A stretch of DNA of 64,000 nt from a virus. Under the pieces are notes generated by a model. The model was not told the origin of the DNA. It searched no databases and saw only the letters and a program-made list of their open reading frames with translations. How positions within the stretch are numbered: the first letter of the stretch is position 1; each line of letters begins with the position of its first letter. The position numbers were made by a program, and so were the translations under genes. The DNA is taken from the IMG/VR virus record IMGVR_UViG_3300032298_001038, positions 124,001-188,000 of that record; one strand, given 5' to 3'. Below, one piece after another: positions 30,086 to 56,842 of this stretch.

Positions 30086-31256
30086 GACAACTCCGCTCGA
30101 TCAAACACAGGACGTGGCCGGACGCGAAACGCACCGGCTGACTACGCTTTTTGCTTGCCCTGATTTTGTTAAGTCTGCTTCGGCTGAGCGGACACACGGC
30201 GACAGCACACTGCCGCGCCACATGTACGCCGATCAATACAATAAACTTTATCCGTGTCATTCCGCGGCTGCAACATGGCTGTCCGCCCTTCACTTTGCCG
30301 ACAAGCGTGCGTCGTTTAACGAAAAGCGCGCCGACGAGATTCATTCCCGCATCGTTGCGGCGGCTAAGTTTTTCGGAATCCTTGGCGCGGTAAATGAACT
30401 CGAAGAGAAGGTTGCGGCTGTCAACGTTGACGACCTCAACAATCTTTCTGACGACAATTTCGCTATCGTGTGGGCGGCTGACGCAGGCGCGAAAGAACGG
30501 CACTGGCCGCTGCGTAACGCGACTGAGGTCAAGTTCGCCGCTGAACATTTTAACACGTATCGCGATGAGTTCGTATTCGAAGACCGCCAGAAGGTGGCTG
30601 AAAAGATTCTCGTCAAGGCTGCCGAGTATGGCGCCGACATTGGCGATCACGAGCATGTGCTGTCGTTATCGGCTGGCTTCGGCGCTTGCGCCGCGAGTGT
30701 TGCCGGCGACATGCTGCGCAAGCGGGCGGCGCTTGTACAGCGCAGCAACAGCCCCGCGGCAGTTGAGATGTTGAAGTTGGCCGCTGTCGTCGAGAGCAAC
30801 CCTGAAAACGCGCGCGAGCAAGAGATGCGTTTGAAGTTAGCCGCCGCCGTCGACGAGTTCGACCGCGTCAATCACCTCGACCGGCTGTATGACGCCGGCG
30901 GGTTGCCGCGTCCTGAAGAAGTGTTGTTCGCCGTGACCGAGAAGGTTGCGAACGATTTCATGCGCGCCAACGTCGAGACGACTACGGGCAATGTGTATGC
31001 GCTGGACGATCTGGAGAAACTGGCGCTGGAGCAGGTGCGTGAGTGGCTTGGCGACGATTTCGCCGACGCCGTGACTGCTGGCGGCGTCTACCTCGACCGC
31101 GACAAGTTGGCCGCGATTGTGCCGACGTTGGATCGCGGTATGGCGTCGATGCTGGACCGGCTGATGCAAGAGAACAAGATCGCGGCTGTCGTGCAGACAA
31201 AAGCCGCCGAGTGCTTACTGCCGCTCGAAAAATTGTTCGAACTTGCAGCCGAGTGA
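30084..31256 (+). CDS. Unknown, possible virion or replication-associated protein
   Basis: 390 aa from the ATG at 30084, with AGGA 7 nt upstream. It is soluble and helical, with conserved-looking LFACPDFVKSASAERTHGD and ADQYNKLYPCHSAAATWLSA near the N-terminus. The rest is Ala/Glu-rich helix. No catalytic motif recognised. It is the first gene of a plus-strand unit with the 122-aa membrane gene and tRNA-Met. Confidence 0.6.
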   Translation: MTTPLDQTQDVAGRETHRLTTLFACPDFVKSASAERTHGDSTLPRHMYADQYNKLYPCHSAAATWLSALHFADKRASFNEKRADEIHSRIVAAAKFFGILGAVNELEEKVAAVNVDDLNNLSDDNFAIVWAADAGAKERHWPLRNATEVKFAAEHFNTYRDEFVFEDRQKVAEKILVKAAEYGADIGDHEHVLSLSAGFGACAASVAGDMLRKRAALVQRSNSPAAVEMLKLAAVVESNPENAREQEMRLKLAAAVDEFDRVNHLDRLYDAGGLPRPEEVLFAVTEKVANDFMRANVETTTGNVYALDDLEKLALEQVREWLGDDFADAVTAGGVYLDRDKLAAIVPTLDRGMASMLDRLMQENKIAAVVQTKAAECLLPLEKLFELAAE

Positions 31257-34338: not shown

Positions 34339-34378
34339 TTTCTGATATCTAAGGGAAAGTGCGAATAGCGAAAACCCC

Positions 34379-34888: not shown

Positions 34889-34927
34889 TAATATGCCCGG
34901 TTTTTGCCGAGAATTTAGCAACTGCAA

Positions 34928-51438: not shown

Positions 51439-53088
51439 TCAGACCGCGAATCCAGCAGCGGTGTAGGAGATTGAAACGTCGTCTACACCAGTGACGAATA
51501 CCGTGGTTCGGCCGGTGACCAGCCGTTGCGGGTCGTCCGGTATGACGAGCAATGTGCGGTCGCGCAAATATACGTTTTCGCCGTCTGGGCGCCTGATACG
51601 GCCGAACATATCAATTTCGCCGATGGCTTGCCGGCCCGTTAAAAACTTGTGTGCCGCCGTCGCAATGACAGAAGAGTGTAATTGGCCGCCAAATCCGACG
51701 CCGGCAATCGCGTCTACAACGGCCTGCTTCATCGCTAAAATTGTGGCGTCAGACACGACGTCGTTGTTCTCCGTCCGAATCTCGAATGAAATTTTGGTAA
51801 AGCATGGCACCGCGCTTTTCACAAGGATGTCGGTGGCTCGGGGGCGATTATCTCGCGACGTCATCGTGTCGTGGATGTCGGCGACGAGCGGCATGCCGCG
51901 GGTAGTAATTGTGTACAACGCCTTGCTTTGATTTAGCGTCAAACCAGACGAGAGCGTATCGCTGTCTTCGAAACGAATGATTGCGGTCTGATACCGCGTG
52001 TAAACACCTTCAACAGCGTAAATAATGTCGGGAACGTATGTGATCTGCGCCAAGTCAACGCCACGGGCGTCGGATAGTACCGCGTAGCCGTTACTGGTTT
52101 TGTCCAGTGGCTTGGCGACACGCACAACTTCGTAAAAACCGGGGTGCAGGTCGCGCGGAAGCGGTACTTGCCAGATTGTTCCATTCTCTCCGATGCCGAC
52201 GTACGTTGCTTGCAGCGTGTGCTCTATCGCCTGCGCGTACGGCATCGTTTGTACATAGACGTCAACCTTTCCGCCGCCGGAGATCGGAAACAGGCTGTGC
52301 TGGTCGCGCTGTTGTTCAGGATCGCCGTACCCCAGTATCGAGCAGTGGAGTATGTTTTTGAACGCCGGTTGCGCGCGAATAAATTTTTCGTAACTCTTGC
52401 GGCTGCCGATAGTCGCGGCCGTCAGGCCGAGATCGAGTGTCTGCAAGTATTCTTCGTTTGTAGCCGAATTTTTACCGGACACGAAATCAGACCCCGAAAA
52501 TACTTCAGAAATGTTTCCCGGAATAGAGTTCGAATAAAACTTTGTGCCGCGCCTGATATTGCCGTTTGTACCGGGATCGCGCGCAATAAACGGCACGGTT
52601 GCGGCGTACGTTCCGTCGCCGACATCGACCATGACGCGCTCGTTCGCCGCGGTCGCGATTGAACCGGCTGGAAGTACGATGTATGTGTCGGTAGGCACGA
52701 ATACAACTTCGTCAGCGACATATTCGACATCGCCCGGTAACACGGTGCGGTCGTTCAGCAAAAATACAAACGTCGCGGCGCCGGTCGCTTGTGCGCCCGG
52801 ATTGCGGGTCACGTTAAAGTTCGACAGTACGTGGTCTACGAGTTCGTCTTCAGCCAGCGCTGGATTTTGCGTGATCTGAAGCAGACTGCGGCTCTGCAAA
52901 ATACGGTCGATGTTTTCGCGGACGGCGGTATTCAATACGCTGTTAAAATACAGCACAAGATCGTGAAATACGCCGCGCGTAAGTTCTACGTCCGGATGCC
53001 GTTCTTGCATCAATTGCGCCAATGTCAGCAACGTGTCGGCAACTTTTTCAGGCGCAAGTTCCCGAAGGCTGGATATTCCAAGTGGCAT
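51439..53088 (-). CDS. Baseplate J-like protein
   Basis: 549 aa. Residues about 105-220 (ATGAATFVFLLNDRTVLPGD, VDVGDGTYAATVPFIARDPG, TNGNIRRGTKF) match the baseplate J / T4 gp6-type domain. Such proteins form the wedges of contractile-tail baseplates. This is the strongest evidence for a myovirus. Confidence 0.75.
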   Translation of the reverse strand: MPLGISSLRELAPEKVADTLLTLAQLMQERHPDVELTRGVFHDLVLYFNSVLNTAVRENIDRILQSRSLLQITQNPALAEDELVDHVLSNFNVTRNPGAQATGAATFVFLLNDRTVLPGDVEYVADEVVFVPTDTYIVLPAGSIATAANERVMVDVGDGTYAATVPFIARDPGTNGNIRRGTKFYSNSIPGNISEVFSGSDFVSGKNSATNEEYLQTLDLGLTAATIGSRKSYEKFIRAQPAFKNILHCSILGYGDPEQQRDQHSLFPISGGGKVDVYVQTMPYAQAIEHTLQATYVGIGENGTIWQVPLPRDLHPGFYEVVRVAKPLDKTSNGYAVLSDARGVDLAQITYVPDIIYAVEGVYTRYQTAIIRFEDSDTLSSGLTLNQSKALYTITTRGMPLVADIHDTMTSRDNRPRATDILVKSAVPCFTKISFEIRTENNDVVSDATILAMKQAVVDAIAGVGFGGQLHSSVIATAAHKFLTGRQAIGEIDMFGRIRRPDGENVYLRDRTLLVIPDDPQRLVTGRTTVFVTGVDDVSISYTAAGFAV

Positions 53089-53089
53089 A

Positions 53090-53599
53090 TTAGTCTCGCG
53101 GCACTATTTCTATTGGCAAAACGACTTCGCGCGAATCTCCCGCTAGACTGGTAATTTTAACACCTAACGTCAAAAATACCGCAGTCGTTCCGCTCTTTTG
53201 TGACACATCAAAACCGGGCAAAATAGCCACATTTGTAATCTCGGCGGATTTGAACCGCTCGTCATCTGGCATCTCGTCGGTTTCTTCGGCGCGAAGGTTG
53301 TTTTTGATAGTTAAATCAGCCAGCGCGAATTCTGTGCGAACATTGATCGGCGTTCGGAAGCCGCCGGTACGCGCGACGCGCATAAAGTTGCAGCCGCGCG
53401 CCGGCAAGCCGGGCATTGACCCGCTCTCGGTCATGAATTCAAGAAGCCAACGTTGTGCCAGTTTTTGCGCCGCGGTTGTAATCTGCCCGGACGTATCCTT
53501 ATTAAACAACTCAAGACCAAGCCGCCTCTCGCCGGGGCCGGTCGTGTTCTGTAGGCCAAGATAATCGTATTTGCGGTTGACGTAATCTGATAGCGCCAT
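53090..53599 (-). CDS. Baseplate wedge protein, gp25/W-like candidate
   Basis: 169 aa, directly upstream of the J-like gene, as in T4 and P2 gene order for gp25/gpW. Segments LPARGCNFMRVARTGGFRTP and NVAILPGFDVSQKSGTTAVF are beta-rich. The homology is by position and size. Confidence 0.5.
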   Translation of the reverse strand: MALSDYVNRKYDYLGLQNTTGPGERRLGLELFNKDTSGQITTAAQKLAQRWLLEFMTESGSMPGLPARGCNFMRVARTGGFRTPINVRTEFALADLTIKNNLRAEETDEMPDDERFKSAEITNVAILPGFDVSQKSGTTAVFLTLGVKITSLAGDSREVVLPIEIVPRD

Positions 53600-53602
53600 A
53601 CG

Positions 53603-54067
53603 TCACTCCTTGATGCTGCCGAAGTCGATAGCCGTTTGCACGCCGTCCCTAAAAAACGTAAACAAACTTTTACCCTGCTGGCCGTGACCGTCTAGTCGAC
53701 CATGCATTTGCGACGCGCAGCGGATCATGCTGGCGTGCCTAGTGCGGAACGCGCGCTCTTCTACAGCCATGTAATCAGCCTGCCATTTCATCGCGTGGGC
53801 GTCGCCGTGCGACCCCGCATCGTCGCCCCATTTTCCTACGATCTCTTCCGAATACAATTTGTTGATAGGGTTGCGCTCCCACGCCGGAACGTGCAGCGAC
53901 GGCACGTCGAGCGGGTCATTAAACTCTGGCGGCACGTGCCATTCGCGGTAGGTGTTGTGGTTCCTGAAGTGGTCGGCGAAGTTGCGCGCTTTCTTTTCTA
54001 ACTGCTTGATGCGCTCTTCAAACTTACCGTCAACAACGGCTTTACCCGGACTATCTGGATGACCCAT
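53603..54067 (-). CDS. Unknown protein in baseplate cluster
   Basis: 154 aa, charged, with EERIKQLEKKARNFADHFRN and a His-rich centre. Function not recognised; it lies between the gp25-like candidate and the sigma-like gene. Confidence 0.55.
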   Translation of the reverse strand: MGHPDSPGKAVVDGKFEERIKQLEKKARNFADHFRNHNTYREWHVPPEFNDPLDVPSLHVPAWERNPINKLYSEEIVGKWGDDAGSHGDAHAMKWQADYMAVEERAFRTRHASMIRCASQMHGRLDGHGQQGKSLFTFFRDGVQTAIDFGSIKE

Positions 54068-54076
54068 TGAAGCACC

Positions 54077-54883
54077 TTAAAAGTTGTGTAAATACCGTTG
54101 GTCAATCATCTGTTGAATTTTTGCCGCACGTTGGCTGACGGCGCCCGGGGTAATGTTCAACCGGCGGGCAATGTCTTGTGTCGAAGCGCGGCGCCGACCG
54201 TTGCGCCCTAGCGTCATGTCCATGATGAGTTTATCAGTCGGAGTCAGGTCGCCGTATACGAAATCTAACCACGCGTCAGTTTGTTTCGTGTAGTTCGGCA
54301 ACGTACTGGCGACGTCTGTGTTTGTGGCATCTTCGCTGTCGCCAGATTGCATTGCAGTCATACCCTCAGCGACCGGCTGATTAAACGCACGTATTTTTTT
54401 GATACGGCGTGTTGACAGCCCTGTCATGTCTGCCAGTTCGTCATCAGTCGGGTCTCGGCTCAGGCTGTCGCGAAGTTCGTTCTCTGCTGACGAGAGCCGC
54501 TGAAAATCTAAACCGACTTGCTCTGGAATGTTGATGATGTTTTGTTCTTGCGCGGCTGCTCGGCGCAGGCTCTGAAGTTGCGACAGCAAATGCGTTTTGA
54601 CGTTGCCCTTTTGCGGGTCATATGTGTTTAAAGCCTTTAACGCCATCAGCCGGGCTTTGTTTTTTAACGTTGGGCTTGCGTTCTGCCCTGCGTAACTGCT
54701 GACAGCCGTGTCGATGATTGGTTGCACGGTACCTAGCAGTTGTGTGTTGATTTCAGGCGACGGGGATTTGCGCCACGTGTCAAAGATATCGTCAAACTCG
54801 CGCGACGCTCCGTAACGCGACTGTGTTGAGAACGGCGGTTCGACGTCGCCGAGAATTGACGGTGTGCTTTTCTGCTTTGCCAT
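54077..54883 (-). CDS. Sigma70-family-like protein
   Basis: 268 aa. Residues 76-120 (KARLMALKALNTYDPQKGNV, then HLLSQLQSLRRAA) resemble sigma region 2; 137-165 (LRDSLSRDPTDDELADMTGL) resembles region 3; and 213-262 (LTPTDKLIMDMTLGRNGRRR, ASTQDIARRLNITPGAVSQR) is the region 4 HTH. The gene lies among baseplate genes, so it may be a phage sigma factor for late genes, or a virion protein with a sigma-like fold. No region 1 is present. Confidence 0.6.
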   Translation of the reverse strand: MAKQKSTPSILGDVEPPFSTQSRYGASREFDDIFDTWRKSPSPEINTQLLGTVQPIIDTAVSSYAGQNASPTLKNKARLMALKALNTYDPQKGNVKTHLLSQLQSLRRAAAQEQNIINIPEQVGLDFQRLSSAENELRDSLSRDPTDDELADMTGLSTRRIKKIRAFNQPVAEGMTAMQSGDSEDATNTDVASTLPNYTKQTDAWLDFVYGDLTPTDKLIMDMTLGRNGRRRASTQDIARRLNITPGAVSQRAAKIQQMIDQRYLHNF

Positions 54884-54895
54884 AAGTCACCTACG

Positions 54896-56842
54896 CTATC
54901 CGGTTACGTTGCCGGGGTTAAAAGCCGGCGCGCCGTAGTCTATGGGCGCGTTGGCAGCCGAATTGCCGTCTGGTTCTTGCCCGGCGATCAAAGGGCCTCC
55001 GGGCCACGGACTCCCCGGCGGCATTTCTTTATAGATCGGCGCGCGGGTGCCGACGTAATGCACGCGGCTATCATAGTTATTAATATCGTTTTCTCGCTCA
55101 GTCCTCACGTGACTGAGCGTGAGCGACGTGCCAGCCTGATGCTGTTCCGCGTTGATTGCGAACGACACGTTGACCACGGCGCCGTACATCGGCGTGTTTT
55201 CTTTGCCGATCGCGGTGATAGGCGGCATGATTTTGACAATGCTGCCGGGGGCGATATCGAACCGCAGTTTGCCAGACACTTCGCCGTGACGCTGCCCCAG
55301 AATTGCAGACTTGTACCAATGCGACGCAAATCGGTCGTAAATATTTAATGTCTTTTGGTCAACATCGTCTTTTGATTTGTTGAGATAGGTGTCCTCACAC
55401 TCGCGATGCGGGTCTTTCGCTTCGGGGTTTGGCTGGCTGCCTTTTTGCGGCGCGGCAGTAGATCGCCCTTGGTAATTGAAATGATTTTCCCGCACGTAAC
55501 CCATGGTATAGACAGGGTTGGCTAACCACGCTGGCGGGTCGCGCACAAGGATGTTGCCCCAGTGATGATCGTGATCTTTTGGGTCAACAGGGTACATGCC
55601 GGCGGGCCGGCAATAGCCGTGGATTGGCGCGAGTTTGCCGCCCATCTGAGATTGTGAGCCGTCGGCCTGCGGTGCCCAGTAAATAATGATACTGCTGATC
55701 ATGTGCGCGCAATTTACATTGAAATTGGCGTAGTTGTATTCTTCGCCCGTGATCGTGACGTACGGCGTGTGCAGCCCCGGGAAAAAAGGGATCGCTTGTG
55801 CAAACTCGACAGACGGCGAGATAGCAAACAAGAATGACGGCCCAAGGTCGCCGACAAGTTTGCTCCAGAACGAGTTGTAGCCCATGCCGTCCATGATCAT
55901 GCGGCTGAGGCCGTCGTGTGCCGACAGGCTCATGTACGCGTACGGCTCTCCCCCGTCGAAGCCTTTCAAGTTCAACGGCAAAATGGCTTTGTATTTTTCT
56001 GGCGCCTTGCCCGGCATCCGTCGTAGCGCGTTGATTGCGGCTTCGTTGTTGTCTTTTGGCACCCAACTGGCTAACGCGTCTGGTGCGTCTGACGGCGGCG
56101 GGTCTGGCTCAGATTTGTCTGGTTTTTTGCACTGAAGGCGTGGATGCTTCATTGCGCAAATTGCTTCAAAGATGCGTTTAATAACTTTCTCCCACAGGTC
56201 TGTTTCCATATTCGTTTTTGTAACGATAATGGACTCGTCGCCCGGTGCAGGGTATTTGTTATCAATAAGCGGAATGCCGCGAACGCCCGTACCTCCGCGA
56301 CGAAGAAAACCTTCGCCGGCTTGCGCGCCACCACCGCCAGTAAGATCGGCTACGACGATTTGCGAGGCGGCTTGCGTCAGATCGTGCGGCGTGCCCTGCG
56401 ACCAGTCGCCATTGAGCATGGACGAGCAGTTCAAGTCGTCAAGCCAGTGGATTAAATGAATCGTGTATGTGCAATGGTTGCTCGACCGCTGGTAACCGAT
56501 ACCGGCATAGTAGCCGTCAAAAATAATGTATTTACCGTCTTTTAAGCCGTCGGTAATCGGCGCCTTCAAATAGCCGTCTGTAGACTTGACTTCAAGATAG
56601 ACGAGACAACGGTCTCGCGGCTCTAGTTTTTCGATGACGTCGTGAATCGTGGCGCGCTTTTCGGTGCGCACTTCCAGCCCCGTCGCCACCTCAAGAGATG
56701 CGCTCGGAATTGTATTGAGCGGAAATGAAGCCGCGACACTTACAATATCTTCGAATTTAGTCTCCCCGCCTCGGCGATGTTTGAAAATCGCTTCTAACTT
56801 AAATTCAGTGCGGATGTACGGAGGCTCTAATTGCGACGTCAT
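54896..56842 (-). CDS. Baseplate hub-like protein
   Basis: 648 aa. The N-terminal part (EFKLEAIFKHRRGGETKFED, VSVAASFPLNTIPSASLEVA) is beta-rich as in tail-tip/hub proteins. Contains a Pro-rich linker (SEPDPPPSDAPD) and a C-terminal Gly/Pro tail. The position between the tail proteins and wedge genes favours the hub. Confidence 0.5.
   Translation of the reverse strand: MTSQLEPPYIRTEFKLEAIFKHRRGGETKFEDIVSVAASFPLNTIPSASLEVATGLEVRTEKRATIHDVIEKLEPRDRCLVYLEVKSTDGYLKAPITDGLKDGKYIIFDGYYAGIGYQRSSNHCTYTIHLIHWLDDLNCSSMLNGDWSQGTPHDLTQAASQIVVADLTGGGGAQAGEGFLRRGGTGVRGIPLIDNKYPAPGDESIIVTKTNMETDLWEKVIKRIFEAICAMKHPRLQCKKPDKSEPDPPPSDAPDALASWVPKDNNEAAINALRRMPGKAPEKYKAILPLNLKGFDGGEPYAYMSLSAHDGLSRMIMDGMGYNSFWSKLVGDLGPSFLFAISPSVEFAQAIPFFPGLHTPYVTITGEEYNYANFNVNCAHMISSIIIYWAPQADGSQSQMGGKLAPIHGYCRPAGMYPVDPKDHDHHWGNILVRDPPAWLANPVYTMGYVRENHFNYQGRSTAAPQKGSQPNPEAKDPHRECEDTYLNKSKDDVDQKTLNIYDRFASHWYKSAILGQRHGEVSGKLRFDIAPGSIVKIMPPITAIGKENTPMYGAVVNVSFAINAEQHQAGTSLTLSHVRTERENDINNYDSRVHYVGTRAPIYKEMPPGSPWPGGPLIAGQEPDGNSAANAPIDYGAPAFNPGNVTG

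Follow-up and report, generated by a model that had tools for sequence, protein, structure and literature searches.

A sigma-70 family gene among baseplate genes

The window, a stretch of 64,000 bases, comprises positions 124001–188000 of a 198,312-base virus record (G000). It contains an ATG-initiated open reading frame of 268 codons that is predicted to encode a sigma factor, flanked by tail genes on the same strand:

51439–53088, minus strand: baseplate J-like wedge protein, 549 aa (PF04865, 7.4e-8; PHROG 6 baseplate wedge, 9e-13)
53090–53599, minus strand: gp25-like protein, 169 aa, assigned by position only
53603–54067, minus strand: small protein, 154 aa, between the sigma gene and the gp25-like gene
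54077–54883, minus strand: predicted sigma-70 family protein, 268 aa
54827–54862, minus strand: N-terminal peptide PSILGDVxxPFS of the sigma protein, residues 8–19
54896–56842, minus strand: hub-like protein, 648 aa, directly upstream of the sigma gene and named by position only

A preliminary description had reported, with no strand given, a 268-residue protein with regions resembling sigma 2, 3 and 4 between hub-like and wedge genes. The frame is real and lies on the minus strand (the plus strand of the same interval carries 12 stops), and its surroundings are as described. Profile searches likewise bear out the sigma assignment. The protein matches Pfam Sigma70_r3 (4e-9), TIGR02393 RpoD_Cterm over residues 82–257 (1.8e-10) and PHROG 351 ‘RNA polymerase sigma factor’ (1.7e-9); Pfam Sigma70_r4 scores 7.5e-5, just under its cut-off. 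A profile of the 36-member sigma family matches solved SigA/RpoD chains at 3.6e-16 across regions 2–4, and every member (36/36) matches both Sigma70_r3 and PHROG 351. Region 2 is the weak part: it is the most diverged, and Pfam Sigma70_r2 is reached by 4 of the 36 members.

The chain is laid out as region 2 (~43–120), region 3 (~121–170), an acidic, finger-like linker (171–198) and region 4 (~198–267). An AlphaFold2 model (pLDDT 78) predicts the helices of regions 2, 3 and 4 well, with the linker and the N-terminus disordered. When searched against the PDB, this model retrieves bacterial sigma factors domain by domain with a probability of 1.00; TM-scores over the whole chain are low, reflecting a different placement of the domains. 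In region 2.3, the bacterial aromatic residues Y430, W433 and W434, which melt the -10 element, are replaced by H, S and Q. These melting aromatics are a feature of primary sigmas, and some sigma-70 family members are without them. The disordered N-terminal peptide PSILGDVxxPFS is conserved in close sigma homologs and replaced in the Arash group of sigmas, and is a candidate packaging or docking tag. Judged by sequence and predicted fold, the gene is assigned to the sigma-70 family, with regions 2–4.

Pfam and PHROG searches of the 648-aa hub-like protein returned no match; its gene holds the same place beside the sigma gene in close relatives. The gp25-like gene downstream is conserved in all groups of the lineage, and the sigma gene lies just ahead of the gp25-like/J-like pair in all 68 loci with enough DNA, a placement kept even across sigmas that are only 20–25% alike. 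A polymerase role alone does not explain this fixed place among baseplate genes; it would fit either plain co-expression with the late genes or loading by way of the tail. An apparent hub–sigma fusion in one locus (L058, a 795-aa frame) was rejected, its N-terminal part being an arginine-rich frame shadow without hub similarity. Elsewhere in the record, a 1394-aa tail-tip protein with collagen-like repeats and repeats of the ice-binding beta-roll type is encoded at G000:81748–85932 (L011:1748–5932).

A phage-encoded multisubunit polymerase

G000 also encodes a multisubunit RNA polymerase (RNAP):

G000:20917–25347 (L008:917–5347), minus strand: β-β′N fusion, 1476 aa (Rpb2_3; Rpb2_6, 2e-49; Rpb1_1; Rpb1_2, 7e-24)
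G000:18001–19941, minus strand: β′C, 646 aa (Rpb1_5, 4e-22)

Both genes lie outside the window, so the polymerase was invisible to the preliminary description. The ADFDGD active-site motif is intact in the fusion. One β and one β′ set were found in G000, and no alpha-type domain was detected there. Searches of G000 with Sigma70_r4, Sigma70_r2 and the sigma Gp196 of Salmonella phage Arash recovered no second sigma; Sigma70_r2 also misses the known one, so a very diverged second sigma could have escaped. Bacterial-type β and β′ are recognizable by profile in this tailed phage, as in the mReC lineage. The mReC phages are tailed, drawn from IMG/VR, endowed with a deeply branching β/β′ polymerase and in several cases jumbo (Weinheimer and Aylward 2020, PMC7481178), and they are very probably the lineage of the window phage. 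A sigma factor is mentioned nowhere in that work.

In other members the β-β′N fusion is split (1136 + 395 aa in both G044 and G045), while in G040 a single open frame of 2106 aa runs across the region. G000 further encodes a 1049-aa protein in which a uracil-DNA glycosylase superfamily domain precedes a DNA polymerase of family A (G000:108767–111916; L012:8767–11916).

Co-occurrence of sigma and polymerase

The published phages with this sigma are Salmonella phage Arash and Vibrio phages D69, D181 and D148; a faecal contig gives a weak match. The same four named phages are the only published ones in which the polymerase match covers more than 80% of the fusion. In IMG/VR, 65 loci were found by the sigma profile and at least 80 by the polymerase profile. 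Of the 39 polymerase records with a length of 100 kb or above, 38 contain the sigma; in the one exception, G038, the tail genes are also unrecognizable. Conversely, the polymerase is present in 25 of 27 sigma records, the two misses being fragments of 107 and 117 kb, and in all 24 of those longer than 120 kb. Eleven further records were reached via the baseplate gene. The polymerase is present in 6/6 of those over 160 kb, and four without a polymerase match are 77–102 kb long. Pooling both sets, all 30 sigma records above 120 kb carry the polymerase.

We attempted to separate the sigma–polymerase linkage from the sigma–tail linkage using more distant tail clusters, but both persist in every cluster with DNA of sufficient length; a baseplate alignment of 10 members proved too diverse to be searched. 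All of this co-occurrence lies in one lineage, so plain common descent could account for it. Both linkages are strong, yet they do not tell a functional tie from shared ancestry.

Charges at the sigma–β′ docking site

Bacterial sigma factors dock through region 2.2 onto the clamp helices of β′, with sigma E407 and β′ R275 as key residues. The clamp hairpin is conserved across the aligned phage polymerases, and in the model of the phage β′ it is predicted with high confidence and matches that of bacterial β′. Neither E407 nor R275 is kept in the window phage, where sigma residue 407 is K. The E. coli charges are -1 for sigma 2.2 and +3 for the β′ clamp helix; in 39 environmental pairs the means are +3.1 for the sigma helix and -1.9 for the β′ helix. 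Sigma 407 is acidic in none of the 39 environmental homologs and basic in 32, sigma 409 is basic in 38, β′ 271 is acidic in all 39 and β′ 274 in 36; these pairs fall into two or three clades, so the charge swap is no statistical test. The Arash/D69 group has intermediate charges and retains E407. A salt bridge of the bacterial R275–E407 type was ruled out, R275 being lost in the aligned phage enzymes and the charges swapped instead. The change runs in the direction of a re-wired pair, in which the sigma would bind the phage β′.

A promoter-like motif

The upstream gaps of G000 share a two-part motif, CTAAAT-N16-GCATAT, with 11 exact copies against 0.008 expected. All copies are on the coding strand, mostly 40–250 bases ahead of a gene. 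One exact copy falls in the window:

34891–34918 (G000:158891–158918), minus strand: CTAAAT-N16-GCATAT (CTAAATTCTCGGCAAAAACCGGGCATAT), 59 bases before a 126-aa gene

Across records, with spacers of 11 to 21 allowed, the motif was found in each of the 12 records tested with a sigma of 61% identity or more, in 65 copies, of which 64 have a spacer of 16 and one a spacer of 17; a reversed control pattern gave one match. In the remaining 21 records, with more distant sigmas, the motif is absent, save for two off-spacing matches in one record. Sigma region 4.2 has a helix-turn-helix that hardly varies within the motif-bearing clade. In the full consensus, CTAAAT is followed by W, the middle of the spacer holds an A/T block and GCATAT is preceded by G. 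The motif can be re-read as CTAAAT-N17-CATATT, with a -35-like CTAAAT and a -10-like CATATT 17 bases apart. It is a candidate promoter that shares the geometry of sigma-70 promoters but differs from them in its letters. The only ties between it and this sigma are phylogenetic range and geometry.

The genes behind the motif are non-structural where they can be named, e.g. an ATPase and small membrane proteins. No copy lies upstream of the sigma/baseplate operon, and a scan of the late gaps of G000 for a shared motif found nothing enriched. CTAAAT-N16-GCATAT is the one phage-type promoter motif that was recovered. The possible host-type promoters that the preliminary description placed at 31243 and 37528 were not recovered: a consensus scan misses both, with 2 sites there against 3.5 in shuffled sequence.

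The gaps of G000 are also strongly enriched in an 11-base element, TTTAGATATCA, found on the minus strand at G000:2327, 58998, 59873, 60494, 61709, 62355, 62832, 93431 and 197501, with a one-mismatch copy at window positions 34343–34353. It often directly follows a GC-rich hairpin and lies shortly before CTAAAT-N16-GCATAT, and may represent the tail of a terminator or an upstream element of the promoter. Arash (OQ632216) has a repeated motif of its own, GGTATAAG / GGTATAAGTAA-GTGTAA, with 30 of 31 sites intergenic. The GGTATAAGTAA-GTGTAA repeat precedes genes of the non-structural strand and has no -35 element; GGTATAAG resembles a host extended -10 element and could be of the host type.

The sigma homolog in Arash virions

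Among the closest known systems is Arash, whose sigma, Gp10 (PMC10585845; OQ632216), is homologous to the window sigma and is placed as in the window, with a hydrolase/hub gene on one side and the wedge genes on the other. Its polymerase is likewise split into β-β′N and β′C, and is 32% identical over 97%. The Arash sigma differs in keeping E407, and the phage differs in having another repeated motif and a second, non-virion sigma, Gp196 (L018:4516–5553), encoded among non-structural genes. A second annotated sigma of D69, D69_0246 (L019:3798–4574), also lies among non-structural genes.

Mass spectrometry of Arash particles detected the sigma Gp10 (24 unique peptides, 467 spectra), β (Gp206) and β′ (Gp216), all in the virion (PMC10585845). 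We divided the published spectral counts by protein length. The sigma yields 2.00 spectra per residue, in line with β-β′N (2.31), β′C (2.00) and the helicase Gp217 (2.43), while its wedge neighbors Gp12, Gp13 and Gp14 yield 1.51, 0.98 and 0.66; in unique peptides per residue, Gp10 ranks first of 115. Although spectral counts are crude and the Arash sigma is only ~26% identical to the window sigma, these figures point to a subunit of the polymerase more than to a component of the baseplate. The preliminary description had held that a structural role shown by virion proteomics would overturn its sigma reading; the Arash homolog is indeed in the virion, at the level of the polymerase and not of the baseplate. 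The particle list comprises 116 proteins and includes obvious non-structural enzymes, so carry-over is possible, as its authors acknowledge; Gp196 is missing from this list, though many enzymes were detected (PMC10585845).

Proposed role of the sigma protein

Taking together the homology, the polymerase genes, the tail linkage, the co-occurrence, the presence in Arash virions and the motif, we infer that the protein is probably the promoter-specificity subunit of the phage's own virion-borne multisubunit RNAP, serving early transcription. The sigma would be produced late alongside the tail proteins, bind the phage core and be loaded into the particle together with the β-β′N fusion and β′C. The holoenzyme would then enter the cell with the DNA, where the sigma would direct the phage polymerase to CTAAAT-N16-GCATAT promoters ahead of non-structural genes, giving early transcription.

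Several features of the locus would also suit a sigma fold put to another use, either as a component of the tail or baseplate or as an adaptor that only holds the polymerase in the particle, with no role in initiation. Adjacency to the wedge genes is invariant (68/68 loci with enough DNA) among sigmas only 20–25% alike, the Arash homolog is found in the virion, region 2.3 carries substitutions at its melting residues, and the conserved, disordered N-terminal peptide could serve as a docking tag. We nevertheless regard such a structural role as unlikely: the full chain of regions 2 and 3, linker and region 4 with its helix-turn-helix is kept in the environmental clade, the Arash protein is about as abundant as the polymerase, unlike the neighboring wedge proteins Gp12–14, and a promoter-like motif with the geometry expected for a sigma is distributed along with the sigma clade. 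It is, in our estimate, quite unlikely that the protein is a late sigma acting with the host core RNAP in the manner of T4 gp55 or SPO1 gp28. The phage has its own polymerase, none of the 39 environmental sigmas is acidic at 407 (32 are basic) in a change that complements the phage β′ helix, the sigma equals the phage polymerase in abundance in Arash particles, and no copy of the motif precedes the late operon. These points have to be set against the position of the gene in a late tail operon, the acidic residue that the Arash sigma keeps at the host docking position, and the normal use of the host core by large phages that encode a sigma (PMC7598289, PMC7824862).

The preliminary description had proposed a phage sigma placed so that late transcription amplifies itself. 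A sigma factor among late structural genes stands, and a self-amplifying late regulator on the host polymerase is disfavored by the phage β and β′, the virion location of the Arash homolog and the motif ahead of non-structural genes. The same phage holoenzyme might instead serve late transcription, its presence in particles being carry-over. Manufacture of the sigma with the late genes and the possibility of carry-over raised by the Arash authors (PMC10585845) are in keeping with this, but it is improbable given that the other sigma, Gp196, is undetected in Arash particles despite the many enzymes there, and that the motif precedes non-structural genes such as those for the ATPase and small membrane proteins.

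Relation to known transcription systems

A promoter-specificity subunit of a phage-encoded RNAP has parallels in phiKZ gp68 and AR9 gp226, both being phage-encoded specificity subunits of multisubunit phage RNAPs and both having a sigma2-like domain plus a finger (PMC9209446). Those proteins, however, belong to the non-virion RNAP and are without recognizable sigma sequence similarity; AR9 gp226 lacks a helix-turn-helix. The homology of the window sigma is clear from sequence. Phages of the phiKZ/AR9 type have two many-subunit polymerases and no sigma homolog, while the window phage has one β/β′ set and a clear sigma. T4 gp55 and other phage sigmas for the host RNAP are, like the window protein, phage-encoded members of the sigma-70 family, but their phages have no multisubunit RNAP of their own and redirect the host core (PMC7598289, PMC7824862). 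Reviews from 2020, 2021 and 2026 describe phages with multisubunit RNAPs as lacking a sigma homolog and large phages encoding a sigma as using the host core (PMC7598289, PMC7824862, PMC13282480). The Arash paper lists the proteins and does not link the sigma to tail position, promoter or lineage (PMC10585845).

The two strategies for large phages are exclusive in these reviews, and the window lineage combines an RNAP of its own with a sigma. There is about an even chance that this widespread lineage of large phages packs a complete bacterial-style holoenzyme (β-β′N, β′C and sigma-70) into its particles, with docking charges so re-wired that the enzyme, once injected, is kept apart from host sigma and core and reads a private CTAAAT-N17-CATATT promoter. 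How a virion RNAP finds its promoters is poorly known, and the lineage offers candidates for the subunit, the promoter and the interface. A true sigma partner would, moreover, be informative about where the deeply branching RNAPs of phages come from: since the sigma is a bacterial factor, descent of the phage RNAP from, or adaptation to, bacterial transcription fits better than a pre-LUCA relic without an initiation factor.
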